Source of the DNA: Mytilinidion resinicola
Lineage: Eukaryota; Ascomycota; Dothideomycetes; Mytilinidiales; Mytilinidiaceae
Reading direction: 5' to 3'
NCBI RefSeq assembly: GCF_010093595.1
Contig: NW_022985456.1
Coordinates: 456,104-520,103, forward strand
DNA length: 64,000 nt
Part shown: positions 10,549 to 62,492 of the stretch, piece after piece
Numbering within the stretch: the stretch's first letter is position 1
How the letters are laid out: each line of letters starts with the position of its first letter
Program-made: the position numbers and the translations under genes
The notes under the pieces: generated by a model
What the model saw: the letters and a program-made list of their open reading frames with translations, nothing else
Told to the model about the DNA's origin: nothing
The model's database searches: none

Positions 10549-13500
10549 CTATGGCGTCCATTGCCGTTGAAGCAACGAGTAATTGCTCATACACCCTTGA
10601 GTAATCGGATGATCTAGCCCGAGTTTTTCTTGCAGGCCTGCGCATGCTCGCTGGTAGAGTGGTGAAGCGTCTTTATACTGCTGCAGTTGGTGTAGTAAGT
10701 ACGCAAGGTTGTAGACGCTCCTCAGCGTGTCGGGATGCTCTTTCCCTAAAACCTTCTCCCACCCCTCCAGCACTTGTCTATTCATCTCCTCTGCCTGCTT
10801 GTACTTCCCCTGCTCTTGCAGTACTAATGCTAGGTTGTTTAAGCTTCTTAGTGTGTCAGGATGCTCTTCCCCTAGCACCTTCTTCCTCATCTCTAGCGCT
10901 TGTCGGTTCATTTTCTCTGCTTCCTGGTACTTCCCCTGCTCTTTCAGCACTGTCGCTAGGTTATTCATGCTCATTAGCGTGTCGGGATGCTCTTTTCCTA
11001 AAACCTTCTCCCACCCCTCCAGCGCTTGTCCATTCATCCCCTCTGTCTGCTCGTACTTCCCCTGCTCTTGCAGCACTAATGCTAGGTTATTCATGCTCAT
11101 TAGCGTGCTAGGATGCTCTCTCCCTAGCGTCTTCTCTCTCGCCTCTAGCACTTTTCGGTCCATATTCTCTGCCTCCTTGCACTTCCCCTGTTTTTCTAGC
11201 ACTGTCGCTAGATTGCTTATGCTTTCCAGTGTCCGGATGCTCTTTTCCCAGCACCTTCTCCCTGCCCTTTAGTGCTTGTTCGGTTAAATCTTCTGCCTGC
11301 TTGTACTTCCCCTGGTGTAGCAGCACTGCCGCTAAATTATTCATGCTCGCCAGAGTCTCAGGATGCTCTATTCCTAACGCCTTCATGCTCCCCTCCAGCG
11401 CTCGGCGGTTTATGCCCTCAGCCTCTTTATACTTCCCCTGGTATTGCAGCACTGTCGCTAGGTTGTTCATGCTCGCCAGCGTGTCTGGATGCTCTGCCCC
11501 TAAAGCAGCCTCCCTTGCTTCGAGTGCACCTTGGCTCATCTCTTCTGCCTCCTTGTACTTTCCCATCTCGTATGCATACCACGCCGCCTTGAAAAGAACC
11601 GACGCCCACGCCTCGACCGCCCGTCCACCAGCTGGCTGACAAGCTACCACTGCTCGTGCATGTGGAAATAGCGCTTGACATACCGCCCAGTTCTTGTACC
11701 GTCCCACCGGATCGTTGTCGTCCATGAGCGTTATGTATGCCTCCTTCCACTCCTCTAGTTCATTATAAACCTCTAGCCATTTCTTTATCGAGAACTGCAC
11801 CAGCCGGTGCATCTCAAACTCGCGCCCATCCAAACTCATCCAATTAAGGAATAGTTTGTCAGCGTGTGAATGTCCTCTTCAAAGTTGGCTTCTCTATCCT
11901 TTTCTCGCTGATATTGGCTCTGGAGAAGCGATTCCGGAATTCCCTGTCGGTCGAAAAAACTCATCAGCGAGAGTAGTCGAGCGGCAGTAGGCATCCCTCT
12001 ACGGATATGTTCGAATGAGACCTGTAAGGTGGCGATGATGGAGTTAGATGCTCTGCCGTCCCTGCGGTTGTCTCCTACGTCCCTTGCAAGTAGACGGGCT
12101 CGGTCATGGTCGTTTCTGTGAATTTCGTCTATGTATCGCGAGATAGTCATACGCGGCGCTCTCTGTTCGATGTGAGCCGCCGCCTGCGTGATAGCAAGGG
12201 GCATGTAGTCGAGAGCTTTAAGCAGTTCAGTCGCGTTGTGCTCGTTCGCATTGCTGAGCTTCTTCTGGAGAAGAGCTAGTGCTTCGCGACTGTCCATCGG
12301 CTTGACCTCCACGAGGCGATCTCCGCGTCCCGTCAATCTGCGCGCCACGTCTCGGCTCCGAGAAGTGATGAGGATCGATCCGTTGGGCGATTGTGGTAGA
12401 AAGTCTGACAGCGGCTCTGCTGCTTGATCCGGATTGCTAGCTCCTGCCACTTCCGCCTCGTCGAATGGAGGGAAGAGGACGTTCGAATCGTCAGCGTTGT
12501 CGACAATCATCACCCACCGCCCGTTCGACTCGTCGCATAACCAGCTTTGGACGAGCTGGAGGACATCCGCTTTGGGGTTGTCCCACCCATCCATCTTCGT
12601 CACTTGAACGATTTTGCGATAGCCCTCCTCGAACGTCGCTCGTGTATCTGCGTGCACCCAAAACACCCACGTTGTCGGCGACTCGTCCTGCACCAGGTAG
12701 GCATATTCAATGGCAATTTGGGACTTGCTGTGCTGGCAATTAACGTCGGCGTTACGCTTGTGAAGTACAGCACTTACCCAACGCCTCCAAGGCCAACAAG
12801 CGCCGCGCGAGCTGCTGGTCTCGTGCAGATCTGGCGTACCCTGTCGAGGCTGTTGCGGCTGATGAAGTCGATGTCCCGCCGGAAGGGGACTGTCGAGGAT
12901 GGGGGAGGCTTTGGGCGGAGGGCGTGCAGGACGGTAACAGGGCCTAGACGGCTTAGTAGAAGCACTTGCTATGGATATGAACTTGGTACCGTATGAACTG
13001 AGTATATAGAGACGGGGCTCTTGGCGTGCTAGCCGATCACTTGGACCTATTTGAGTAGGTAGGAGTCCAAAGTCGACTGAAGGTAGCGCGCCAAGAGTCC
13101 CGTCTCAATATACTCAGTAATTACGGTATGGAAGGACGTTTTGGAGCGCGATGCGCGATTGAATTACACACCTTTAGATCCTTCCCATTCCTTCCAGTTT
13201 TGAATAACTTTCTCTTGCGCGCTCTCACACATCTCGCTCAAAAGGCCCACAACGGTTCGGAAGTCGTCGTCTGAGCGATATCGGAATCTGATCAAGGTCG
13301 TGTGATCCTTCTTGATCTCAACAGATTCCGCATTTCGCATACCGGGGACCACGGCTGACGCCTTGGGGACTATCTGTACGTATGTTAGAGACGCGCCATC
13401 CATCATTCACGCCAAGAGAACTCGCCATCATCGAACGTCCCGCTGGAAGGAAGGTTGGATATGACTCGAAGCAGAATATTGTGAAGACTTCCGCACTGAT

Positions 13501-14140: not shown

Positions 14141-14174
14141 CTGAGAAGCTCGCAGGCGCGTTGATTATGCTTAC

Positions 14175-16269
14175 TCGATTGATGGGGCTTCGCCCTCTAC
14201 CAGGCACTTGATACCATATGAGCTTTCTTCGGGAGACGCTGACTCTGGATCGTTCTTGGACTGGTATTCATCGGTCGCGAAGCTCATGTTCTTGATGGAG
14301 TCACACCAGATCTGTACTTTCTCATTGCTTGAACAGGTAGACATATCTTTTAGATCGGATTTTGTGAGACCTTGCAAATCCTCTCCACAACTCGAGAAGC
14401 CCAAGCTGACTGAAGAAAGGGATGAGCGACTGTTGGAATGTGACACGCCAGTAGGGGCTACACTGGTTACTCTGGATGAACCGTCACATTCTGGCTCAGG
14501 TAGTGCCCGTAGGGCAAATTTATGCATGTCTTTTCCGATATGTTCCAAGAAAGAGTTACTTCCCAGGTCGAACTTTGCATCTTTCGCCTTTTCCTTCTTC
14601 CAGTCGCCCTCGTAAATCGAACAAACGGGACATCTGTCTAGTTTAGGTTCGTCAAATATCTGGCATGCCGTCAAGAGGTCATTCAGGTACTCTTCAGAAA
14701 CAGCATCTCGATGGAATGCCCGAACATGTTCACTAAAGGCGCCTTCTTTAGCGAAATTGCGAGGGTCTGGGCAGAAGAAACACGTCCATCCCCGGAAATC
14801 TTGGTGCTCCGAGAAGACATGTGTTTTCCACGCTCTGAAGGTATCAAACAAGCGGTTATTCTGTGAGCAGTCCGGAAGGTAGCACGTGTAGGGCTGCAGA
14901 TCCTCTGAAACATGTTTCCTGCAAACTTAGCATATGAAAGGCAAAGCACAAGAGTCTTAAACTAACCTCCACTGAGATGGCTTCGCAGTCTCTGTCAGAA
15001 TAGTTAAATTGCAATATGGGCACTCGACTCCGGTATCCTCGTTGAAAAATCTCGGCGGCATTGGATAGTCAACTTGAAGAGCGATCGCTGTCGGCGGTGC
15101 AGCTACAGGAATCTGTTCAACCATCGTTCCCAGCGGAATGTCAGGTACGAACTCTGATAACTGATTTGTAGTGGCTGTTGAATGTTGTGAACGAGGCGGG
15201 GGAGGCATTTCAACTCTTTCAGCTGGAGGTGCTGTAGGTGTGCTCGTCGGATATTGGATCTCGGTATCTGGGACTTGTGTTGGTTGACGGCGAGAAAGAT
15301 CCTCCAGAAAAGGTGAGTGAGGTGCAAAATCGTGTTGGTCGATGGGTATCTTCAATTTACCCCGGCGTTCCTTCGCGAATTCAAATCGATGCATCCGCTT
15401 GGCATTTGCATTGATGAGCACTTGTTGTTCAAATCGTAACGGGCTCTGTTGCTCAACTGCTCCCTTTGAGGACACTAGCGCTTGAATCTTCTCTTCCGTA
15501 GGACAAAGATCGTCCGAGGAAACTTTCACACGAAGGAGGAATATCAGATGCTCCATCAGCGACGAGTAATTGGCTTTGTGCTTCTCAAACGTACGATCAG
15601 CGTTGCTCAGACGCGAGGCTGCGCTAGCCTGCCGGATTGCGACTCCCAAAAGGACAAGGAGTCTAAGCAACTGTTCAACGCTGAGCTTTGCTTCTTCTAG
15701 GATAACGTCTCGGTCATCTTCTTTGCCTGCGCCTTCGGCTTGTGAAGGGTCTCTCTTGGTGCTGGTCTGCTGGTCTAGTGATACAACATGTGCCTTGGAC
15801 CCATCTGCAAGATCTCGACACAATGTTGCCCATGCCTCTAGTGTGCTCAATGAGCTGATGACGACGTTCTTCGCCGTAGCATCGTTTCGCAGGCGAAGAT
15901 CAAGAGAGTTTGGCGCCCTCGCACTTGCTCCAACCCCGGCGTCCCATAGATTGAAGTCACTCAGGCGATTTCGGCCAAATGAGACTTCTTCGGATTTGGT
16001 GCGCTGTTAATTCCTCGTGAATCTGGGAAAGCCATGAGTAAGTATTCCTATCTGCGTCTGGTCCAATATGACGATAAGTATAAAAAGACTACCAACGATC
16101 GAAGCTTACCTTGGCGCTTCTTAGGCTGATTTCCACCTTTTCGAGCTTCACGAATTGCACACTCTTTAAGCCTGAGACGGCATTCCCGGGTGATCGAGCG
16201 TATAGTGATAGAGTGGGTATTGTCCTGAGGAGTCTCCATCATATCAGCAAGTGAAGAATCTAAATGCAA
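14175..16269 (-). CDS. AcuF-like C2H2 zinc-finger protein or N-terminal part of the NLR
   Basis: Two main exons, about 14967 to beyond 15850 and 14175-14918, are separated by a 48-nt intron (14919-14966). The product has an N-terminal helical region (around NSLDLRLR) and a proline-rich linker. A zinc-finger block follows: CPYC..L then KPSQWRKHV, YTCYLPDC, FDTFRAWKTH, WTCFFC and FHRDAVSEE. This matches the C2H2-type region I associate with fungal 'AcuF-like' proteins. A 34-nt interval with GTAAGC and CAG ends (14141-14174) would join it in frame to the lipase-like NLR. That is unusually short for an intron, so separate genes remain possible. The 5' end is unresolved: an exon at about 16090-16269 (QKKRQ then GTAAGC) is plausible, but the frame into 16010 needs a one-base shift. 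Confidence 0.6.
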
Positions 16270-16927: not shown

Positions 16928-19846
16928 ATGTATCTTGATGACGAAGATGATTCCTGGGTCGACGTTCAAAAGTTCTCAGATACTAATAGCAACGCTGCTG
17001 CTGATGCTGCTAATTCTGCCCGGCAAGGCGGCTCGCTGGATGGCCTCCGACAGGCAACGAGATACAACTTCACAAGCTTCCACTGGTTCGGTCTCAGGAC
17101 AGCAAATGCTCAAATGAAGGCTGCTATCTCCCCAAGAGACGTTCGTGTGATGTCTCGTTCGGTTGAATTAGCTCTCACGCTGGAAGAGCTAACACTGCAT
17201 TCAGGTCAATCGCTACGCACTGGATCATGCAACAAGCATGAAAGTCGAAGCAAGCCTCGCAGGCGAAGATGCCGAAGTCAACGCTCCACTACCGGTCCGA
17301 AACGCTGGCTCAGCGGAAGAAAACGAACCAGAACAGTATTCAGCCTCAATGACCCAAGCCCTTCATACTGTCTTCCACAATAGCACAGTCTTGCCTTGTG
17401 ATTGCGAGCGCGAAGGCGGGCAATTCCGTTTACTCGATACGCATGTTTGTGCGTTGCGATTAGATGGAAAGTTGGGGGTATCTGGCGACAGTAGCCACTG
17501 CTTTTTTGAATCGGTTGTTGCAGTTGACGAAAATTATCAATGGAGACACATACAGTTCCAGATACCGAGGTATGGCCGTTCGGATATCGACTATTGAGTC
17601 AAAAAGCTCATAAAGTCTCGCAGAACTATCAGTCAGGTTCACTTTGAAGACTCTTCCAGCGACACTAATGACGGCACACTCGGCCCACCATACGAGTTAC
17701 TGAACGATGTTTGCCGGATTTTTGAGAGCCGCGTTCTTTACCATAGTATCCCTATACGCATTGAAGGCAGTGTACCTAATCACACACTGTATAGACTCAA
17801 TCCTGAGGATGGAGGTGAAACAATGCATTGAACGAGGTAAGTTATGTATTGGATGAGCATCTATCTAGGCTACGTACGCCGTATATATACTCTGTGTGTG
17901 CGGAGGCTTACGTAGCCGTACCGTAGAACTGTGTGGGCTAAGTATAGGAACCGTGTTCTATATCAAGGTAGCCGAGCTAACCGTACCATACTCCGTAGGC
18001 TAGCTGGCTAAGAATACGTACTCCGTCAAATCCTGTATTCATAGATGACTCTCCCATGGACTACGCGCCGATTCCGCTGTCGACCGCACTCAAAAACAAT
18101 CTTCTCTCATCAACAAGCAAGATACAGCTAGCCTTTACGTTATCCAAAGCATTCTGGCAGTACTATGAGTCAGACTGGATGCGAGCAGCTTGGAATTTTC
18201 AAACAGTACAGCTCCTTCCCCAGCGCGATGAGGATGAACGCTGTGGAATCGCGACACTGGATTGTGAGGCGGAAGTACCATTCTTGAAAATTGATACAAT
18301 CTCCCCGGACGGGCCTTTCTTCTCCGAGTACGAGCCGCAAAACCAGCGCATGCACCGTTACCCGTATATCCTCAATTTGTGCCTGCTTTTAGTTCTACTA
18401 TGCACAGAACAAGGTTCGCCACACGAATCTTCTCCTACGCAGAATCGAATTTATTCTTTTTGTGCCATGAAGATCAAGCACAAGCAGAGCGTATGGCCCG
18501 TTATCGAGCTTTCCGACGAACGCAAGAGGAAGTATAAGGAAATCGTCCGCAAGTGTCTGCCTAATCCGCGCGAAGATATCTGCCTCAGTCTTGCGGAGAG
18601 ACGCGCGTGGTTGAGAGACAATGTTGTCCGCCCTCTGTATGAACTTCTCCAAGACATGCAGTGCTCGGACACGGATGATGCCCCAGAGACAGAAGAAGCG
18701 GGCCTCCAAACCAACCCACAAATAGACATGGACGAGATTGCCAAAACCCCAAGGTAGGTTTCTAAACAAAGTCTCGGCACTTGGGCTAAGAAAGTTTCAA
18801 GCAACGAATCAAGAAGATGGATCAATAACATCAAATTTTCGCCCATGCAGAGATATATCTGTCAGGAACTGAAAAACGACAAAAAAGGAAGACGGCCAAA
18901 AATTGCAATCATTGATACGGGGTATGATGGCGAAGCACGTTGGCTCGATAATCCATTCAAAAATCGACTAAGCCAAAAGGACGAGGCCGGGACAATTTCT
19001 CAAAATTGGAAGGACTTTTGGGAGAATAACGATCAGCCCCAAGATGATTCCGGCCACGGAACTTCTATGCTGTATACAGTCATGAATATCGCACCTTTTG
19101 CCGATGTCTGCGTTGCGCGTATAGCGGGAAATAGCGAAGATTTGCGTCAGGAGGATTCAAGGACGACTAAAAATCTTGCAGATGTAAGAGATTCTGACTT
19201 TGAGGTCCCTTCAATTAGTGACGCTAAACCCGGGCCACAGGCAATTCGTTGGGCTGCGGAAGTCCAGGAAGCGGACATTATATCCTTGTCTCTTGGCTGG
19301 GAACAAGAGAAATTGGTTGAGGGACGCTATGTTATAAGCAACGTTATCTTTGATGCACTTGGGAAACGAAATCAAAAGGTGTTGCTTTTTGCTGCCGCCT
19401 CAAACTATGGAGGCGGTCGATACGAGCTGTTTCCAGCAAAGCACCCAAATGTCTTCTCTATCCGGGCAACGAATGCGCTTGGCAAACATGAAGACTTCAA
19501 CCCTCCTTTGCCTGACGATGGCAGCGAAGTAGTTGGAACGCTGGGGGTGGGCGTACCCACGAAGGAAAGGACCCACGAGGAGACTGGCAGGACGGGGACC
19601 TCGGTAGCAACAGCTGTTGCCGCTGGGTTCGCGGCCATTGTCGTTGCTTATATCAACATTCATGGTGAAGGTCGCTTATGGGAAGGCCTAAGGACTCACA
19701 CGGGGTTTACCAGACTACTCCGTGAAGGTATCTCAACGGAACCCGAAGCAAGGAAACGTTTTGTCACGTTGGAAAAGCTGTATGGAAATAATTGGAAAAG
19801 GCACTTTGAGTCTTGTCTAGATGGAGTTACTTCAAGACCGAATTAG
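16928..19846 (+). CDS. Subtilisin-like (S8) protease with DUF7580 region, HET-Q2-like
   Basis: The reliable part is two exons, from about 18048 to 18753 and 18802-19846, joined by a 48-nt intron. The first encodes a fungal DUF7580-type segment (PLSTALKNNL..., FTLSKAFWQYY, NFQTVQLLP). The second is a complete S8 catalytic domain with Asp in IIDTGYD, His in DSGHGTSM, Asn in AASNYGG and Ser in GTSVATAVAAG (codon near 19601). There is no signal peptide, so it is probably cytosolic. Upstream frames at 16928-17383 and 17238-17829 probably form the N-terminal region, but splicing is unresolved and the second contains an in-frame TGA at 17595-17597. About 210 nt from a GTAAGT at 17838 looks like an enlarged intron. 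It is convergent with the gasdermin-like gene 0.6 kb away. This is the arrangement of Podospora HET-Q2 (protease) with HET-Q1. The function as gasdermin activator is inferred from that pairing. Confidence 0.8.
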
Positions 19847-20456
19847 TCCCTTTACATTTGTCATGAATGCTGCATCATTTTACAAATGTGATCTATCTTA
19901 TGAGCCACGTCGCGGCCCACGGTGCATTTGAGCAAAATGAGACGGAGGAACTGTATTCTACCGAAGGAGCTGACCAGAGAATCACCCCACACTGTTGATG
20001 TACCTTTTAGGCAACCCTTACCAATTTCATGCATGCAGCTAAAGATTTGCTTGACAAGAGTGTGGTCTGAGTGGATCGGAACGTCTGTCTGTAAGGCGAG
20101 AGCCGCTGCAGGCTGGCTGTATTCAGTCAGATCAATATGTTGAACGAACGCTCTGCTTCAGCATTGATGGAAGCTGCCATGCACGAAGCAATTCGCTCTG
20201 GCAGGCGCCTCAGCCTCCAAAGCTAGTTGGCTGTATAAGGCACGGGAGTCAAGGCGTTCTTGAGCTAAAATTCGCGCATGCCATCACCTCCATACTTCGC
20301 TGGTACCACAACATCACTAGATAATACGTTTATCTGTCAGATGCTTGACATACACCCGCGATCAAACCGCGAGTTCTTAGTGCGAAAGAGAGATATCAGA
20401 ATATGCATTGAACTAGGTCGTCACCTAGAGCGACAGCACCAGTGCCTATCATTCCT
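19847..20456. other. Convergent intergenic region
   Basis: This is 3' sequence shared by the protease gene (plus) and the gasdermin-like gene (minus). Only small open frames with no similarity were seen. Confidence 0.45.
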
Positions 20457-21299
20457 TCATAGCATCGACCATACTTCTTCTCCATCCTCAAAGTCTACTT
20501 CACGGACCTGACCGTACTCTTGCTGATCAGCAAAGTATACCACATTTTGCTGCGTAACTGTGTCTGCCTCCAGCTCAACATCCTCAACCTTGTCGTCTCG
20601 ATCCATGAAACCTGCATCTCCTGGATCATATGTCTCGACCTGTACAGTTGGATTTGATCCCCATGGCTATCGCCGTCCTGCCTCCTTGACTTCATGCAAC
20701 CGGTAGGCGAGAATACAATCGCCTAGGATCTTGTAGGACTCCGCGTTCTCTCCGCCTCTAGTTGCTTCCGCTCTGCCCTCCACAGCGGCATGCTCATTGA
20801 TATGGCCACCTCCACTCAAGCCACCGTGCATCTCAGCCGTGCGTCGGTTCGAGTACTTCAAGCCTTTGGCAATTTTGAGTCCAGTGACGATGAACACTGG
20901 GCCAGTATTCAGAGCTCCGTCGACCTGTTCATCCTTCTTGCGAAGCGCCTTCACATCCGCTCCCGTAGGATTCTGGCTCAAATACCAAGACTCAACTTCG
21001 TTGTATTCATACACCGTCCGCAGGCTACGCTCCTTGCTTGCTTCGGCACGGCCTCCGAAGGCCTCGTAGAGTTTCGCGGAAAAGCTAATATTGATCGACC
21101 CATGGGCTTCGCGCTTGACGTCTCCCTCGCCGGCGCCGGCACCTTTCATAACGTTCGGAAGAGGGTCAAGGAATCCGATTGTATTCTCGGGATGGAACAT
21201 GTTCGTGATAATATTGCCGATCTTGATTGGTCCGCCCTGAATATATTCGAGATCGGGCACTCGGAGATAATACTTCTGGTTTCCCTGCGCGGCTGGCAT
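20457..21299 (-). CDS. Gasdermin-like pore-forming protein (HET-Q1/RCD-1 family), interrupted by in-frame TAG
   Basis: From the ATG at 21299 an open frame of 210 codons runs to a TAG at 20667-20669. The same frame then stays open for 69 more codons to a TGA at 20457. The sequence has the fungal gasdermin pattern as I know it: an N-terminal KYYLRVPDLEYI start, an IKIGNII strand, an INISFSAKLYE block, EVESWYL, and PVFIVTGLKIAKG followed by glycine-rich hairpins and ILAYRL. The part after the TAG is acidic and would be the C-terminal piece removed by protease in HET-Q1. Total length with that part is about 280 codons, near HET-Q1. The TAG may be a true nonsense break, or lie in a 51-nt intron (weak GTCAAG donor, CTGTACAG acceptor) that preserves frame. 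In this family the activated protein permeabilises the plasma membrane during incompatibility. Confidence 0.75.
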
Positions 21300-23630: not shown

Positions 23631-26600
23631 ATGTCTACTTCGGTAGCAAAATCTTCGCGGCTAAAGCCCGAAATTCGTCTGGCTCAAGCTGTTTCCCAGT
23701 TCGAAGGAGACCTTTCAAGCGAGCAGAAAACTGCCTTCCGTACCAATAAGTCTCAATCGCTACATTCCCCTCCAGATCCCTGCGATGTTATGCGACTCAC
23801 AGCCGAGATTGACCGCCGCGTGTCTGGAAAGGGTGGCGGCCGTTGTTTTGGACCTCGTTTTATGAATTTCGTACAGGTAGTCCAGCAATTTGCTGCGCTT
23901 GGGGACATTGTTGTAGGAGGCTCTCAGAATATAATCGCATGCAGCGTCTGGTCGCTAGTGCGGGTGTCATTACTTGTTAGTGTTTCAACCTCCTTGGCTG
24001 GTTTCTCTGCTAATCTCATCAAAAGGCAATTGTGAACTTCTCGTCCTACCTCGAAAAGCTTTCGACCCTCTTCATGACCGTTGGTCGCTCAGCACCACGC
24101 TACCAAAGCATGGCCATACTCTATCCTCGATCCAAATGTCTACAATCAAACCTATCTGAATACTTTATTGTAGTAGTTCGCCTTTGCCATCAGCTATTGA
24201 AATTTACACAGAAGTCGGCGATTCGACAAGTCGTGTCTACCTTAAGCGACTCGGACTTGAAGATGTTTCAATCAGAGCTCGATCGCTGGGCGAATTCGAT
24301 CAAGGAGGAGATAAACTTCCTAGTGGCAAACCAGGTTGAGGAAGAAGCCCAAGAGAATTTCCACTTCAGGGTTCGATCTAGCAAGTTTTACAAATCCGCA
24401 TCGCACGAGCAAAAACTAGCCACAAACCTTCGAGTCCTCGAATTCTGCTCTAAGTATGATCAAGAGACGACGTGGAAACAGACTCGAAAAGTCGGAAACA
24501 CAAACCTCTTCAGTCAGGTCGCCGAATACCAGGACTGGAAAACCAAAGATACGTCCTGCACACTCATATACACAGGCAAATTAGGATCGGGGAAGTCTGT
24601 CTTGCTTGCAAACATTGTCGACGATCTGCATATTCACGACGGAGGTAAGGATATTGCAGTAGCCTATTTCTTTTGCAGGCACGACATTGCGGAGAGCTTG
24701 AAGGCACAGACAGTTATTGGTTCTCTAGCGCGACAATTGTTACGCACGGTACCAGACCTTGCTATGGTAGCAGATTTGTGCGAAAGGACCACTTCAGCCC
24801 CAGATTTCGGAACAGTAGGCAATTTGCTCCATCACGCCTTTCCATCTCATCGTAAAGCGTACTTCGTCCTTGACGGGATGGACGAATGTAACCCTTCGGA
24901 GAGAGACACACTGGCTCAAGAACTCCGGAAGCTCCAGAAGACCCTTACGCTCCTTGTCTGCGTTTCATTCAGACTAGATCCAAACACCGCATTGGAATTG
25001 AACCCCGAACAGTTTGCTGCCGCTGCTACAACTGCAATCCCCGATAATAACCCTGACATCGAGGAATTTGTTGAGGCGGAGTTAGCGAGATGCCTAGAGT
25101 GCAGAAAGCTGGTATTAGGGGATGCTGCTCTTATAATAGAGATACAAGATGCTCTCTTACAGGGATCTCAAGGAATGTTCCTCTGGGTGGCTCTCCAAAT
25201 CCAGTCCTTGTGTAATATGAAATCAGACCAGGATATCCGCGATGCTTTAGCGGATCTTCCCGAGGATCTTTCAGAAACGTTTTCTCGGATTCTACGGCGA
25301 TCGGAAGGACCGGGAAAGTCTTACCAGAGACAAATACTACAGCTCGTCACAGCAGCCTACCGGTACTTGACAATAGACGAGCTTCGAGAAGCCCTGAGTG
25401 TAGTTCCAGGAGACCAAGTCTGGAATCCTTCAAGGCTCCTGAACGACGTATATTCGACGCTGGCTTGCTGCGGATGCCTCCTCACTGTTGATGAAGAGGA
25501 GTCCACTATACGTTTCATACACCATAGCGTCAAGCAGTTCCTCCTGGGTGGTTTCCAAGACTCAACCAACACAGCTTTCACGATGGACAGCGCACAGAGG
25601 ACGATGGCAGATATTGTTATCACCTACCTCAACTACGGCGTCTTTGGAACCGAACTAAGCACAATGAAAGTTCCACAAATAAGAACAGCCTCAGCGCCGT
25701 CTAGCATCATTCTTTCAGCTCTAGGAGCTTCAAGCAGTGCCCGAACTGCATTGAAATTCTTGAAGTCTAAAAAGCGAGCTGACTTTGATATTGGCAAGAC
25801 TATTGCAGAAGCGCGTAAACCGTTCCAGTCTCATTTGGTGGACGCATTTTTCTTCCACCCTTATGCTAAGACGTACTGGCTACAGCACGCCCCGTACTTC
25901 TCGGAGCAAGAGCTAATTATGTGTGACTTTCTACTCGGACTTGTGAAAGGAAAGATCAGGAACTCGACCTTTCCTGACAAAGAGGGTAATACATTGCTCT
26001 GGTGGGCGGTTAAAGGGGGTCACGGGGCCGTCCTCAAGCTACTGCTTGAGACGGGCAAGATCGACGTCGAGTCTGCGGATGAGGATGGACGCACGCCGCT
26101 ATATTGGGCAGCAGAGAACGGCCACGAAGCCATGGTGAAGCAGCTGCTGGCGACGGGTAAGGTCGACGCCAACAACAACAGGCTCGGTCAGACGCCGCTG
26201 TTGGGGGCGGCTAAGAACGGGCATGAGGCTGTGGTAAAGCTGCTGCTAGCAAAGGACCAGGCCGAGGTCGACTCCAAAGACAACGAATATGGTCGGACGC
26301 CCCTGTCGTGGGCGGCTGAGATCGGGCATGAGGCTGTGGTGAAGCTGCTGCTTGAGACGGGCAAGGCCAATGTCGAGGTTAAGGATAAGATTGGCGGGCA
26401 GACGCCGCTATCGGCGGCAGCACGGTACGGGCACGAGGCCGTTGTCAAGCTACTGCTTGAAACAGGCACGGTCGACGTCAACTCTATTGATAATTCTGGA
26501 AACCCTCTCGTCAGCCTTAGGGGTTATTCTGGAAACACACCGCTATTCTGGGCAGCAACAAATGGGCATGAGGCCGTTGTTAAGCTGCTGCTTGTAATAG

Positions 26601-27172
26601 GTAAAGCCGACATGGCCTTGAAGTGTAAGGACGGACGTACGCCGCTATCAGCGGCGGCGCACTGTGGGCAAGAGGCCGTGGTTAAGCTACTGCTCGCGAC
26701 GGGCAAAGCCAACATTAATTCCAGAGATAGATACGCATCAACGCCACTGGCGGGGGCGGCAAGGTATGGCCATGAGGCCGTTGTTAAGCTGCTGCTCGAG
26801 GCGAAGGCCGACGTCAACACCACGGATCAAGGCGGATTCACGCCACTATCACTGGCGGCAAAAATGGGGCAAGAGGCCGTGGTCAAGCTGCTGCTTGAGA
26901 CGGGCAAGGCCAACGCCAACATCAGAAATAGTGTCGGATCCACGCCGCTATTATTGGCGGCAGAAAAAGGGCACAAGGCCGTTGTCAAGCTACTGCTTGA
27001 GTCGGGCAAGTTCGACGTCAACATCAAATATAGTGTCGGATCCACGCCGCTATTATTGGAGGCAAAAAATAGGTATAAGGCTCTTACTAAGCTACTGCTC
27101 GAGACGGGCAAAGTTGACATCTACACCAAGGAACCAAGGACAGACGCTGCTGGCATGGGCGGTACAAAATGA
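23631..27172 (+). CDS. NACHT-ankyrin NLR
   Basis: Exons 23631-23975 and 24026-27172 (50-nt intron with GCTAATC branch) give 1163 aa. An N-terminal fungal helical domain of the DUF7708 kind is followed by a NACHT-type NTPase (P-loop GKLGSGKS near residue 299, YFVLDGMDECN as Walker B), a winged-helix region (LPEDLSETFSRIL..., TIDELREALSV, FIHHSVKQFL), and eleven ankyrin repeats built on GHEAVVKLLLETGK. The ATG at 23631 is preferred over an upstream in-frame TTG. The repeats are strikingly alike at DNA level, typical of fungal NLR recognition arrays under concerted change. A twelfth repeat (QTLLAWAVQNEHDAVVELL) follows in the next frame, so one base appears lost near 27130 and the annotated frame ends at a TGA at 27170. 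Fungal NLRs of this build act in non-self recognition and cell death. Confidence 0.88.
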
Positions 27173-29209: not shown

Positions 29210-31399
29210 TTACACCAGCGTAATCATTTCTTCCTCATATCCGTCCTTGTGAACAAACACCTCCCCTTGCATAAAATCATAGAAATAAGCCTGGCCAACT
29301 AATGTGAAGCACTCTTCTTCCGTTTTTGCTCGTCGAATTATCATTGGTACAGATACACCTTTGATGACAACCACAATGTCTCCAGCCCGCGCCTGTTGAG
29401 GGACCATTCCGACGTACCCCGTCTTCGTTGTGGCTACGCGCACGTGGAAGCAAAACCGACGGGCTTCTGCGTGAAATTTTTCTGCCCCCATGTTCATGTC
29501 TCCGAAATGTTGCCAAAAGGCGGGGAGTGACTCGTCATCATCTTGGTTTGCGTCATTTGGGGGTGTTACTGACTCGCTTTCGACCATGGCGACAACGCGT
29601 TTGACCTTTTCAACGAGGTAGCCAGGTTCGTACTGGCATTTTGTGATGTCCATGAATGATTTGTAGGAGTCGGTATAGTCTTCGCGTGCTCTCGGATTAG
29701 ACTTGGACTCAGGACTGCAGACCATAGTCCTCCACGTGATATTATTGTGATCCTGCTCCGTATATTGTGATGAACGTTTCAAAGAGCGATGGATTTCTTC
29801 TGCGATGGAGTATAAAGGAGGCCAATCCGAATGATCTTTCGAACTAGAAGATAAATTTCCAAGAGTATCGGAGTCTGCGTAGGAATGAGCCGTGGACTGA
29901 CGCTTTTGATCTTTTGCATGCTCGTGAGGTTGATTATTGTTGAAAGACTGCAGAGCCTCGTTGAGTAGTTTCATCATATGAAAAGGACGATTATATCGGT
30001 ATTTGTGAACGCAACCCGAGGATTCAATCTCGCTGATACGGAAGGCAGCAACGAGGATTTGACCTTGCTGTTTACTGAGATGCAGGTGGGGAATTGGTCC
30101 CCCTGCAGCCGGAATGGCATCCAGATTGTACGCTGTAGCCTTCGGGGCTGGATTCTCTGAGGGAAAACTGGGAAATGACCAGTCAGGAACCCACGAAGGC
30201 AAGTTCAACGACGGATCGCTGAGTGAGGCGTTCAAAAGAACCTTCGCGCCTTGGCCAGAGCTCATAAGAAACTCAGCCGTCCTGATGAATGTTTCACGGA
30301 CAGTTTCTGTATAGTCTGGTTGAAATCGACTACCCTTTCCTTCTTTAGAGAGATTAAGTAAACCAAATACTCGGTCCCTTGGGTCGGATGCGGAAGCATA
30401 TCTCGATATCTCCAGCACCTCAATTAGACCCCATTGTTTTAGTTCCTCTCCCGGAGATTGCATCATCCAGTTGCACATTCCTAGCTCATGCATGAGCGCT
30501 ACTTGAGAGCAACCCCTGATGTTAGGTTGTTCCCAAGGAAAGTTGACTTCCAACGAGAAGTTAAGGACTGGAAATCGATGGCCTATACATATTACTAAGG
30601 CCGAGAAGATGAAATCCGCTGAAGCAAGCCAAGTTCCGCACATTATGTCCATTTTCCTTGCTGCTAGAGCTTCCTGAAGAATCCAGACGCGGAAGAACCA
30701 AGGTCGAGAGAGAAACTTGCGAAGTACTTCCCATGACGCATCTTCAGAGGTGGGAAGGCCACAAGGACTCAAAGCCCAAGGCATACAGTGCATTTTTTTC
30801 AAATTGGCGTCGTTCAAAGTGAGCTCGTGGGCAGCACATATTCTTGCGAGCAATTCAGGTATCCGCTCGCTGCCGTCAGCCTCATGGCCCAGATATGCTA
30901 CCACTTTCTTAGCAGTCGAAAAGATGTCGTACATCAATTGGACTTGAGAATTCCGCTCCTGGAGATCCATCTGATTGATACAGACAAAGTCTACCCAAAG
31001 CAGACGTGGCTGATCTTCGAGTTGGAGAGAAAACAGCGCGGAGTGGAGATTATCGCTGATTGTGATCATATTGTCGTCTAGCCAAAGGACACGAGATGGA
31101 GCGGACTGGCCCCAAGTGTATGATAGGCACTCGTATGAGGGCAGTCCGGCAAGATCGACTTCGATCAATGTACCACATAAGTCCGTCTCGTGGAGTGTAC
31201 GGCCTAGGTATTTTTTGCTGATTTTGCTGGCGGAGCTTTCGTGTGATTCTGGAAACAGCTTCAGAAGCCTGATTTTCGTCCTTCCCTCGAGCCTCCTGTA
31301 AGGATATCGGCGGGCAATAGACAATACATTGCCGTCAGGAATGGAGTATAAAAGAGGGTCTGCGGCGAACGATTGAGCATGGAGTCGGGTAGAAGCCAT
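29210..31399 (-). CDS. HET-domain (heterokaryon incompatibility) protein
   Basis: This intact single-exon gene encodes 729 aa. The HET domain begins with YECLSYTWG at residues 89-97, followed by LWVDFVCINQ at 134-143, RNSQVQLMYDIF, and PWFFRVWILQE. The C-terminal half has the usual LPSWVPDWS and a closing AGDIVVVIKG.SVPMIIRR motif found in this group. HET-domain proteins are fungal effectors of vegetative incompatibility, related at the fold level to TIR domains, and cause cell death when activated. The gene sits at the distal edge of the accessory island, is flanked by direct repeats, and is followed by conserved genes from VPS24 onward. Confidence 0.92.
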   Translation of the reverse strand: MASTRLHAQSFAADPLLYSIPDGNVLSIARRYPYRRLEGRTKIRLLKLFPESHESSASKISKKYLGRTLHETDLCGTLIEVDLAGLPSYECLSYTWGQSAPSRVLWLDDNMITISDNLHSALFSLQLEDQPRLLWVDFVCINQMDLQERNSQVQLMYDIFSTAKKVVAYLGHEADGSERIPELLARICAAHELTLNDANLKKMHCMPWALSPCGLPTSEDASWEVLRKFLSRPWFFRVWILQEALAARKMDIMCGTWLASADFIFSALVICIGHRFPVLNFSLEVNFPWEQPNIRGCSQVALMHELGMCNWMMQSPGEELKQWGLIEVLEISRYASASDPRDRVFGLLNLSKEGKGSRFQPDYTETVRETFIRTAEFLMSSGQGAKVLLNASLSDPSLNLPSWVPDWSFPSFPSENPAPKATAYNLDAIPAAGGPIPHLHLSKQQGQILVAAFRISEIESSGCVHKYRYNRPFHMMKLLNEALQSFNNNQPHEHAKDQKRQSTAHSYADSDTLGNLSSSSKDHSDWPPLYSIAEEIHRSLKRSSQYTEQDHNNITWRTMVCSPESKSNPRAREDYTDSYKSFMDITKCQYEPGYLVEKVKRVVAMVESESVTPPNDANQDDDESLPAFWQHFGDMNMGAEKFHAEARRFCFHVRVATTKTGYVGMVPQQARAGDIVVVIKGVSVPMIIRRAKTEEECFTLVGQAYFYDFMQGEVFVHKDGYEEEMITLV

Positions 31400-32322
31400 G
31401 TTAGAAGGTGGTTCAAATTATATAGTAGCCAAGCGTCGAATTCGTAACATGCGAATACTTCTTTCCCTTGTCTAGATATGTATCGAGATTAATCCATAAC
31501 TAGGTGTTAGGCAGCAGTGACAAGGCTGTGAGGTTGCCATGGGCTTATCTATGCTGCATACCTAGGTAAGACTCGGCGCGTTAAGCCACACTAATTTGGG
31601 TCTGCATGCCCTCTCTGTATTTTGTCGCATGACAAACACCTATTTATTGGCTCTGGAGGAGTCGGCTAACGAACGTGCTAGTATTTGCCGCCTTTTACAG
31701 CGGCACATAATATTAGCATCAGATTCCATATTTATTGATCGTGATATCTTTGCATGTTTACATTTTGTTCTCTTTCTTCCACAGCTGCATTCAGAAGTCT
31801 CGGATTCATTGTGTAACCTAACGCAAAACCCGTGGATCCGGTCCTGTATGCTAATTCACGTGGACGTTCTAATTTTGATTGACGCGGCGTACATCACGAA
31901 GGGTGACTCAATCTTGTCTGCAATCAACGGCCCTAAGGTTAGATTGTAAGTAGGAAATCGCTATGGATTTTCCTCTGGCTACCATTGATGGAATCAGTCT
32001 CTCTTTGCCATATTATGATTCTGGTTCGGAGGCGCCAAAAGACTTCGACTCGTTTGGAAAGGAGACGGCCTGGCCTCAGGTCGGGACCATAGTGTCTGTG
32101 GTAGCTTAACGAGTCTAAGCATTGGGCAATCTCACTAGGCTCCGTCTCGTTCGGATTTCTGAAAGCGTGATGGGGTGCCCCTGACAGTGGTAAGAAAAGG
32201 TGCTGGGATGAAACTGACTTGAAAAATGATGGCCTAGTATATCAATTACCACGCCATACGGCCGTGAGCATTTCGTAAACGCCAATTCCCAAATGAAACC
32301 CTTCCGCTCTTGATCCGTACTA
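31400..32322. other. Intergenic region, no gene
   Basis: Upstream region of the HET gene, and the site of direct repeat B (32090-32292). The small plus-strand frame at 31596-31949 has no similarity I recognise. Confidence 0.45.
32090..32292. repeat. Direct repeat B flanking the HET gene
   Basis: Counterpart of the repeat at 28702-28902, same orientation, about 3.4 kb apart. The pair encloses the HET gene. Sequence divergence suggests an old duplication. No terminal features of an LTR (TG..CA with primer-binding site) could be shown. Confidence 0.7.
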
Positions 32323-59593: not shown

Positions 59594-60437
59594 GATGTTG
59601 TCCGAAAGGAAATCGCGATCCGGGCCCAAGATTGATCCAGGACGCACGGCGTACATCTACTACGCGTACGACCCACCGTCTCCATGGGGTCCTCTGACTA
59701 TTCTGTACGCAACGAATGGATTAAAGGTCTTTTTGAGCTCGGCAACGACTACAGTGACAGGACACAAGTCTGTGTTCTCGTTTGCCAATGCCAGGGTTAC
59801 CCCAACGAGGCTTACAAAACCTGAGCGTGATGTCATGGTTCATGCGGCGGGATCTGAGCTGCCTGTTGGCTGAACGGATTCCAAGCGATGGGGCCACTCC
59901 TGAAGGCATTATCTAGCTTCCACCGCGTTTATCAGAAAAGCTGCTCTCAAATCAGATCTGTAATACTTTGTGACAAAAGTACCGATTATTTTGTTAGAAA
60001 CACTCCGCCAGTGTTTCATAAAATGACCTGTGATTTAGCCTGTAAGTGTATTGATCTACGCATTAAGTTCAAGTTTAACAATTTAAAAACAAGGGTAGTG
60101 ATTAACTTTTGATAGAAGAATGTTTAGAACATACCCTTGTATGGAAAATATGCACAGATATTTGCTGTTCGCGATTCCGTGAACAGCGGCAAATGCTAGC
60201 AAGTTTGTCCGCCATTTGCGCTGCCTGAACGCTGGATAAAGCAGAACCAATTGATCCCACTTCCCATTCTGCGCCTCATGCGCCGTAAATCAGCCCACGT
60301 TGACACTTACAGCCTTGCCACTGTTGCCTAACACCTAGGTACATACCATTACTGCCAGTGGTTTTCCGGAAAAAAAAGTATCATTCGCGCGTTACAAATT
60401 CATATATGCCACGACGCTAGAATATTGAATATCTTCG
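59594..60437. other. Intergenic region upstream of HET gene 2
   Basis: Short frames only. AT-rich around 59940-60150. Promoter of the HET gene is expected before 60438. Confidence 0.4.
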
Positions 60438-62492
60438 ATGCCAGCCATCCTGCATCATGACGAACCAATACGAATACCAGCCGATATGTCGTTTAAAAGA
60501 GATATCAGACTGCTGAAACTACTTCCGAGAGATATCAACGCCAAGCTCAAGTGGATCCCAGCTTGCCAAATTATCCATACCGGCCTTGATAGCCACCCGG
60601 AGTTCGTAGCGCTGTCCTATGTGTGGGGCGATGCCAAAGATTCACGGGTGATACTCGTCGAAAAGCACCGCGTTCGGGTGACCAAAAACTTGTATGAGGC
60701 GATGATGGCACTCAGACCACTCAAAGAACCCATCTTAATCTGGATCGACGCTCTTTGCATCAATCAAGCAGATGAAGAAGAGAAGAGCTGGCAGGTTGGG
60801 CTCATGGCAGAGATCTACCGTCATGCGTTCCAGACCCATGCTTGGCTTGGCCCAGCAGATGAGAGTAGTGATTCAGTCATGGATTACCTTAACGCTCTCG
60901 GAGCAAAAGCTGAAGCTTGCTGTATGGACGTTGGTCTGGAGCAATACCAAGAAGCCTGGCGGGAGCCTGCGATGGGGCCTTCGCCTGTCCGTGACCTGGG
61001 TCTATTAGATGTCTTGAAGAGATGGCTTATGCTTATCGGCGGGTTGCCGAGTTCTTCCGAAGAGACATTGCGTAGTATCTTTTACTCTATTAGTGGCTGG
61101 CACGATCAGGATCACCTATTTCCAGTCGCTAGCATGAAGAGCCTTTTCACCCGACCATGGTGGGGACGGGTATGGGTTTTGCAGGAAATCACCGTTCCAA
61201 AAAATGCAGAATTCGTTTGTGGAACCAAGAAAATCACACGAAGTCGATGTAGCGTTGCCCTGGATGCATATTCTGCTCTATGGCGTATTCTTGCGGTGAA
61301 GGCCAAAGACGAACCGCATTCGCTGACGCCTTATCAAAGAGATATTTTTAATGCCTCATTTCAACACCGACCTACTGTCATGCTATCCTCCTGGAGAATC
61401 TACAGACATGGTAAATTTCCGCTAGCAGCTCTACTCCGCGCAACATGTGTCGGCAGTATAGATCCTCGCCGCCACGGGCCTCACCATTTGGAATCAACGG
61501 ATCCGCGAGATAAGATATCTGCCTTACTAGGGATTGCAGCACATCGAAAAGAGTTAGAAAGTTTAGGTCTTGTTCCGGACTATACGAAATCGTACGAACA
61601 GACATATACAACGGCTATGGCAGCCCTGCTCCAGCAAGGGCATGTCTCACTACTTTCGCTATCCCAGAACCCTAAGTCTCTGCCCCACTTACCATCCTGG
61701 GTACCAGATTGGTCCGGATCCATAACACATATGTTACAAGACGTGGAAAACGATCATGTTACCCTTAATCCCAGATTCAATGCGTCTGGTGCCGAACCAC
61801 AAAGCTCGAAAATAACGATCATACGGGAAGAGGGGGTAATCAAGGGAGTGTCAGGGATAAGCTATCTATACGACGAGATACACAAATCCGGGCATTTCAC
61901 TGGCAGAGCTTCTACTCGTAAAGTGCCTCTTGCAGAGACGTTCTCGTGGCCAATAGAGTGGTTGCTTGAATTCATCCGCCTCACTTACACCGAGGGTATT
62001 TACAGGAACTTTCGCGCCCGTCTACGTGCAGCGGCGAGAAGCTCGATCGGAGGCGTTGGACGGAACAAAGATGGACAACTGGTGAGAATTAAAGAGGATC
62101 GATTTGTCGATGCTGTAGCTTTCCTGCGGATGGGTATCAATGACATCAAGGGAGATCCTTTCCAATCTGAGGCCGGACGCTTCCTGGCGCGTACATCTGT
62201 CAGAGATGGGGCCATGAGCAAGCTTTCGGCGATTTTCAGGCTGGGCGCGGAGATTAGGGGAAACAGTCTGGGTCGATCGCCTTTTATTACCAAGAAGGGA
62301 CATCTGGTCCTTGCGTCTGAGCATGTTCAGCCAGGCGACGTCGTTGCACTGATCAGGGGAGCACAGGTTCCGTTCATCCTGCGGCGTCAAAGCAGCGGTC
62401 AGTATCAAGTCATCGGCGAAGCATACGTAGACGGCATCATGGACGGAGAGGCGATGGAGAGCTCTAAATGTCATGCTGTTGATTTAGTCTAG
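60438..62492 (+). CDS. HET-domain protein 2
   Basis: This intact single-exon gene encodes 684 aa. The domain shows FVALSYVWGDA at residues 56-66, ILIWIDALCINQADEEE at 99-115, and TRPWWGRVWVLQEITVP further on. Downstream are ESTDPRDKISALLGIA, LPSWVPDWSGS and the closing VQPGDVVALIRGAQVPFILR. The two HET genes share domain plan but little sequence outside it, so they are distinct members and not a recent duplication. It stands apart from the main island, amid conserved genes. Confidence 0.92.
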   Translation: MPAILHHDEPIRIPADMSFKRDIRLLKLLPRDINAKLKWIPACQIIHTGLDSHPEFVALSYVWGDAKDSRVILVEKHRVRVTKNLYEAMMALRPLKEPILIWIDALCINQADEEEKSWQVGLMAEIYRHAFQTHAWLGPADESSDSVMDYLNALGAKAEACCMDVGLEQYQEAWREPAMGPSPVRDLGLLDVLKRWLMLIGGLPSSSEETLRSIFYSISGWHDQDHLFPVASMKSLFTRPWWGRVWVLQEITVPKNAEFVCGTKKITRSRCSVALDAYSALWRILAVKAKDEPHSLTPYQRDIFNASFQHRPTVMLSSWRIYRHGKFPLAALLRATCVGSIDPRRHGPHHLESTDPRDKISALLGIAAHRKELESLGLVPDYTKSYEQTYTTAMAALLQQGHVSLLSLSQNPKSLPHLPSWVPDWSGSITHMLQDVENDHVTLNPRFNASGAEPQSSKITIIREEGVIKGVSGISYLYDEIHKSGHFTGRASTRKVPLAETFSWPIEWLLEFIRLTYTEGIYRNFRARLRAAARSSIGGVGRNKDGQLVRIKEDRFVDAVAFLRMGINDIKGDPFQSEAGRFLARTSVRDGAMSKLSAIFRLGAEIRGNSLGRSPFITKKGHLVLASEHVQPGDVVALIRGAQVPFILRRQSSGQYQVIGEAYVDGIMDGEAMESSKCHAVDLV

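Follow-up and report, generated by a model that had tools for sequence, protein, structure and literature searches.

A fungal gasdermin (fGSDM) gene and an S8 subtilase gene, located side by side in the genome of the saprobic fungus Mytilinidion resinicola (Dothideomycetes, Mytilinidiales), both carry lesions. The two genes form a clustered S8-fGSDM pair, which is probably an ordinary cleavage-activated module that is now decaying in the sequenced strain. Regulated joint function of the two genes has most likely been lost in this strain. The analyzed stretch of 64,000 nucleotides, referred to as the window, corresponds to C20:456104-520103 of the 47.1-Mb genome, and coordinates without a contig or locus name are those of the window. 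Pairs of S8 protease and fGSDM genes are already known, and the presence of such a pair is unsurprising. The added value of the window is the damaged state, in which a severed, catalytically complete protease lies beside a gasdermin that is cut between its core and its tail.

Structure of the gasdermin gene

The gasdermin core is encoded on the minus strand (20670..21299) by 210 codons, which begin with an ATG at 21299, continue to a TAG at 20669-20667, and specify a protein with 62% identity to the relative P0002. The motifs on which the initial annotation had based its gasdermin assignment, KYYLRVPDLEYI, INISFSAKLYE, and PVFIVTGLKIAKG, are all located in this single frame. A Pfam scan left the 210-codon protein unnamed, and a single-sequence phmmer search of the gasdermin against the PDB returned just two weak unrelated matches, so that a family profile was required. 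The profile of the gasdermin's family found Neurospora RCD-1 in the PDB with an E-value of 2.2e-11, and its matches were gasdermins only. Structure searches with two AlphaFold models, performed with Foldseek and VIA, placed gasdermins in the top rows, and the closest solved structures were those of RCD-1 (8jyy, 8jyz, 8jyx). The AlphaFold model of the 210-residue product has low confidence, with a pLDDT (predicted local distance difference test) of 55.7. A chance match or a protein other than a gasdermin is ruled out by the family profile and the structure searches. The initial annotation was right to call the minus-strand gene a fungal gasdermin, and the core is predicted to be pore-forming.

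The TAG (20667..20669, minus strand) is codon 211 and falls where the predicted linker begins, as placed from the P0002 model. In an L-INS-i alignment, the TAG and one further codon constitute a two-codon insertion just before a conserved tryptophan, which is absent from all 20 aligned relatives. A by-eye reading, in which the TAG was aligned with the conserved tryptophan itself, was overturned by this alignment. The same frame continues past the TAG for 69 codons (20460..20666, minus strand) to a TGA at 20459-20457, and this C-terminal tail matches positions 222-287 of the family hidden Markov model with an E-value of 7.8e-17. The inhibitory tail is thus missing from the 210-codon product, yet it is still encoded in frame. 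Because of the TAG, the product is shorter than the full-length relatives, which have about 282 amino acids.

The model of P0002 indicates the organization of the missing part. The core strands extend to residue 206, residues 216-235 are predicted with low confidence, and residues 241-280 form a beta-alpha-beta-beta unit. Cleavage of HET-Q1 from Podospora results in the loss of a fragment of about 5 kDa, with the cut likely at F238 (PMC12881547), and the predicted tail unit of P0002 appears similar in size. Relatives sharing the tail are present in Geoglossum, Phialocephala, Neocucurbitaria, Bipolaris, Alternaria, and other fungi, and the gene is not species-specific, contrary to the initial assumption. 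The partial record P0015 from Metarhizium majus is a close relative with 66% identity over 54% of the query, and its model likewise stops right past the gasdermin core.

Protease gene and the solo-LTR-like insertion

The annotated protease P0016 (18056..19846, plus strand) has 561 amino acids and consists of the C-terminal half of DUF7580 followed by an S8 subtilase domain, as supported by relatives, Pfam, and the DNA. Its introns at 18754-18801 and 19184-19240 were positioned by comparing the DNA with P0016 by eye. The S8 catalytic frame (18758..19846, plus strand) matches PF00082 with an E-value of 1.2e-14, and subtilisin BPN' is matched by the protease with an E-value of 3.9e-4. The motifs of the catalytic residues begin at 18914 (Asp, DTGYD), 19055 (His, GHGTSM), 19403 (Asn), and 19601 (Ser, GTSVATA), which bears out the full triad described initially. 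DUF7580 is present upstream of the S8 domain, as had been stated, with an E-value of 7.5e-10; however, the match is partial and covers only positions 143-278 of the 319 in the profile. A putative sensing part of the protease retains the C-terminal half of DUF7580, and its 5' part is split away by an insertion.

The insertion (17804..18028) is 225 bp long, has TG...CA ends, resembles a solo long terminal repeat (LTR), and is flanked by a target duplication AATCC at 17799-17803 and 18029-18033. It separates the 5' part of the protease gene from the catalytic part and brings stops into the upstream protease frame. The genome contains at least 40 copies, including that in the window, with 94-100% identity (40 of 63 candidates were scored). 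An exact 5-bp duplication flanks 15 of the 21 copies examined, and none that is exact was found in the other six. Compared with the majority sequence of 20 others, the window copy has 2 differences in 225 places. From these comparisons, the insertion is probably a solo LTR that was inserted recently.

The severed 5' part (17598..17803, plus strand) has no Pfam match of its own. In tblastn comparisons, 17700-17798 was matched by the N-terminal parts of the relatives P0049 (E-value 2.4e-7) and P0021 (E-value 0.014), which continue into DUF7580 in both proteins. Further upstream, the 5' frame meets a TGA at 17595, which may be part of an intron or a lesion. The segment 16928-17190 had been assigned to the protease gene in the initial annotation, but it has no Pfam match in frame, and none of 52 protease hits matches the plus strand there. 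The annotation also assumed a working module and missed both the TAG in the gasdermin and the insertion in the protease.

Arrangement of the pair and proposed mechanism

The gasdermin and protease genes are convergent. The facing genes had been placed 0.6 kb apart, which agrees with the 0.61 kb to the TGA at 20459-20457, whereas the gap to the TAG is 0.82 kb. The S8 gene is thus 0.6-0.8 kb from the fGSDM gene, within a distance of 10 kb. Fungal gasdermin genes are clustered with protease genes in about 80% of cases and with S8 genes in about 63% (PMC10197012), in agreement with the initial statement that the two are commonly neighbors. A gasdermin and a protease also occur on contigs of equal size in two further fungi, P0010/P0031 and P0078/P0022 (Pyrenochaeta sp. 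DS3sAY3a). P0091/P0037, both from 3,024-bp contigs, were considered as a third pair and dropped because their sources differ. P0073 from Curvularia kusanoi is a single model with an S8 domain without the Ser motif followed by a gasdermin, which is either a fusion or a merger of neighboring genes.

From the relatives and published fGSDM biology, we infer sensing, cleavage activation, and pore formation as the functions of the ancestral pair. A multidomain protease, comprising a 5' part with DUF7580 and the S8 domain, would sense a trigger. The S8 protease would then cut the gasdermin in the linker past the core, removing the short beta-alpha-beta-beta tail, and the freed core would oligomerize in the membrane and kill the hyphal compartment. 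In the sequenced strain, the probable young solo LTR severs the 5' part of the protease, and the TAG terminates the gasdermin directly past the core.

Other gasdermin genes in the genome

S8 matches are found at 13 places in the genome, and a gasdermin lies beside five of them (window, C2, C10, C18, and C35) and beside none of the remaining eight. The neighbors were checked in 9.9 kb around each of the 12 S8 places outside the window and in one stretch of C6, and gasdermins were sought genome-wide with only five gasdermin queries, so that their list may be incomplete. The four further pairs are located on C18 (L043), C35 (L042), C2 (L050), and C10 (L052). Counting the window, the genes converge in four of five pairs, whereas the C2 genes point away from each other.

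Of the five gasdermin genes found outside the window, three (C2, C6, and C10) contain an in-frame TAG, which makes four of six when the window is counted. The C2 gasdermin is full length but for its single TAG; that of C6 has one TAG and lacks a recognizable 3' part; and that of C10 (L052 3521-4189, plus strand) has a TAG between the core and the conserved tail, and its N-terminal part was not detected. The gasdermins of C18 and C35 are open frames, and these two pairs can serve as internal comparisons from the same genome, as far as the gasdermins are concerned. In addition, a gasdermin relic at C2:1241937-1242287 (L068) is AT-rich, with 29.6% GC, and contains many stops. By its appearance, the relic resembles a product of repeat-induced point mutation. 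The frequent loss of gasdermins in this genome favors decay for the window copy as well, and the in-frame TAGs in three of the five other genes are best accommodated by birth-and-death decay of the modules.

Alternative explanations

Several observations weigh against decay of the pair. The codon usage of both the gasdermin body (0.129) and the tail (0.163) is coding-like, and the ratio of tail identity to body identity has a mean of 0.82 between the window gene and 19 relatives, compared with 0.76 for the 171 pairs among the relatives (20 chosen relatives were aligned, and the partial P0015 was excluded from the ratios). Because the identity of the tail is not reduced and its codon usage is coding-like, the stop is either very recent or bypassed. 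The gasdermin body has no further break, nor does the S8 domain, which is complete and retains its triad. Five frame-keeping splices could skip the stops of the LTR. A GT...AG stretch at 17815-18044 is exactly 230 nt long, which equals the insertion plus the duplication, and keeps the protease frame, with a weak donor GTGAAA. The public protease model begins past the insertion, the annotated models P0019, P0040, and P0042 begin at a downstream ATG, and the window protease may simply do the same.

A pair that still works, with the UAG bypassed by adenosine-to-inosine editing of the kind published for genes whose premature stops are corrected, by readthrough, or by an unseen intron, and with the protease made from an ATG past the LTR, is nevertheless unlikely. 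The conserved tail and the coding-like codon usage speak for it, as does the type of the stops: those in gasdermin matches are TAG in seven of seven cases (one each in the window, C2, C6, and C10, and three in the relic), versus eight of 20 within matches to S8 and DUF7580 (hypergeometric 0.007, post hoc). However, four of four TAGs without the relic have a chance of about 0.023-0.026, and the stops in S8 and DUF7580 matches may often lie in introns. Single stops between coding-like frames are also common, with 14 TAG, 14 TGA, and eight TAA in 193 kb, the window TAG included; this control flags the window TAG, and the TAGs of C2, C6, and C10 do not reach its limits for codon usage or length. 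The genes of C6 and C10 have further losses besides the TAG. Placement in a hairpin loop is non-discriminating, since the TAGs of the window and C6 are in a loop at five of five flank lengths and that of C2 at one of five, against a background of 41-58%. An intron spanning the TAG is not favored: a search for GT/GC-AG introns of 40-260 nt gave 181 candidates that keep the frame, and among the candidates listed, the GT introns shorter than 60 nt use the weak donor GTCAAG and would delete conserved residues.

Editing of the stop has a precedent in the OLD-ZAO modules. Deaminases of the PF14441 family edit UAG in Neurospora zao genes, UAG is preferred in fungal editing, and the OLD deaminases of Neurospora thus activate a suicidal antiviral factor (PMC12754623). 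The window shares with these modules an in-frame UAG in a suicide-type defense gene and a PF14441 deaminase on the same contig. The latter is an OTT_1508-like deaminase of the OLD family of RNA editors (L058 1933-3803; PF14441 match C20:447547-447726), one of nine matches in the genome. In contrast to the adjacent deaminase of the OLD-ZAO modules, this nearest match is 29 kb from the TAG, and editing of the window stop is hypothetical. No ZAO-like neighbor was recognized beside the deaminase in a list of open reading frames used without a Pfam scan. Genome-wide editing is reported to be absent from Aspergillus nidulans and Botrytis cinerea, and the source leaves open which other classes edit (PMC11156358). 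Among the papers covered by the literature search, none joins gasdermin with fungal stop-codon RNA editing and Neurospora. The amber codons in four of six gasdermin genes could reveal at the RNA level whether control of cell-death genes by stop-codon editing extends beyond the established classes.

It is quite unlikely that a het-Q-like allorecognition locus is being born, in which the LTR released the catalytic protease from control by the 5' part and the strain survives because its own gasdermin is broken. The occurrence of both lesions together is a prediction of the pseudogenization model, in which a sensor becomes constitutively active and the rest is lost or pseudogenized, with het-Q1/het-Q2 as an example (PMC10197012). 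The intact S8 domain and the location of the locus among genes for NOD-like receptors (NLRs) and HET-domain proteins are consistent with such an origin. HET-Q2 itself has only 388 amino acids (PMC10989679) and is shorter than the 561-residue window protease. However, with damage also seen in three of the other five gasdermin genes, coincident decay suffices to explain the lesions. If the locus were nascent, a haplotype with an active protease and no target would kill any cell formed by fusion with a strain whose gasdermin is intact, in line with the proposed origin of het-Q1/het-Q2. The damaged state of the pair makes the published pseudogenization model of het loci testable in a real genome.

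The 210-residue product could also be read as a gasdermin without a tail, controlled by an allelic partner and not by cleavage. The stop is located directly past the last core strand, and the closest solved relative, RCD-1 of Neurospora crassa, acts through a pair of antagonistic alleles and does not depend on control by cleavage (PMC12881547). However, the tail past the stop is still conserved, which would be needless in a tail-less gene, and no second allele is seen in the one genome. The product also ends about 22 residues before the site aligned with the cut of HET-Q1, a rough estimate that takes chain position as residue number. This makes a tail-less gasdermin highly improbable. An assembly or base-call error in an otherwise intact gasdermin would agree with the involvement of a single codon and the openness of the rest of the gene. 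It is extremely improbable, because the two-codon insertion is absent from 20 of 20 relatives and is not produced by one wrong base, and the last residues of the relatives (mostly four) are also missing there.

Comparison with known systems

The window pair is most similar to the two-gene modules of fGSDM and a HET-Q2-like S8 protease (PMC10197012, PMC12881547), in which a short-tailed gasdermin likewise lies beside a multidomain S8 protease. The window differs in that the tail is cut off by the TAG and the 5' part of the protease is severed by the solo-LTR-like insertion. The pair had initially been described as a copy of HET-Q1/HET-Q2, with which it shares a gasdermin and an S8 protease, and in both the removal of the tail would be expected to activate the gasdermin. 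However, het-Q1 and het-Q2 of Podospora anserina are idiomorphs, different genes present at the same locus in different strains (PMC12881547), whereas the window genes are side by side in one haplotype of the one genome analyzed. Two neighbors in one haplotype therefore correspond to the general clustered S8-fGSDM arrangement and not to a HET-Q1/HET-Q2 copy, and that label can be applied to the window pair by analogy. Among the papers listed in the literature search, none names Mytilinidion resinicola or DUF7580.

Neighboring genes

The pair had been reported to be set between NLRs. One flank holds such a gene (24014..27172, plus strand), with NACHT/NPHP3_N and ankyrin repeats in the Pfam scan and a DUF7708-like start below the cut-off. 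The gene on the other flank (10549..13104, minus strand) has tetratricopeptide repeats, a weak NB-ARC match, and a DUF7779 match, the last two below the cut-off. It is adjoined at 14171-16006 (minus strand) by two open reading frames without a Pfam match, which by eye resemble one C2H2-type finger gene with an intron. Two HET-domain genes (PF06985) are present in the window, at 29210-31417 on the minus strand and at 60429-62492 on the plus strand.

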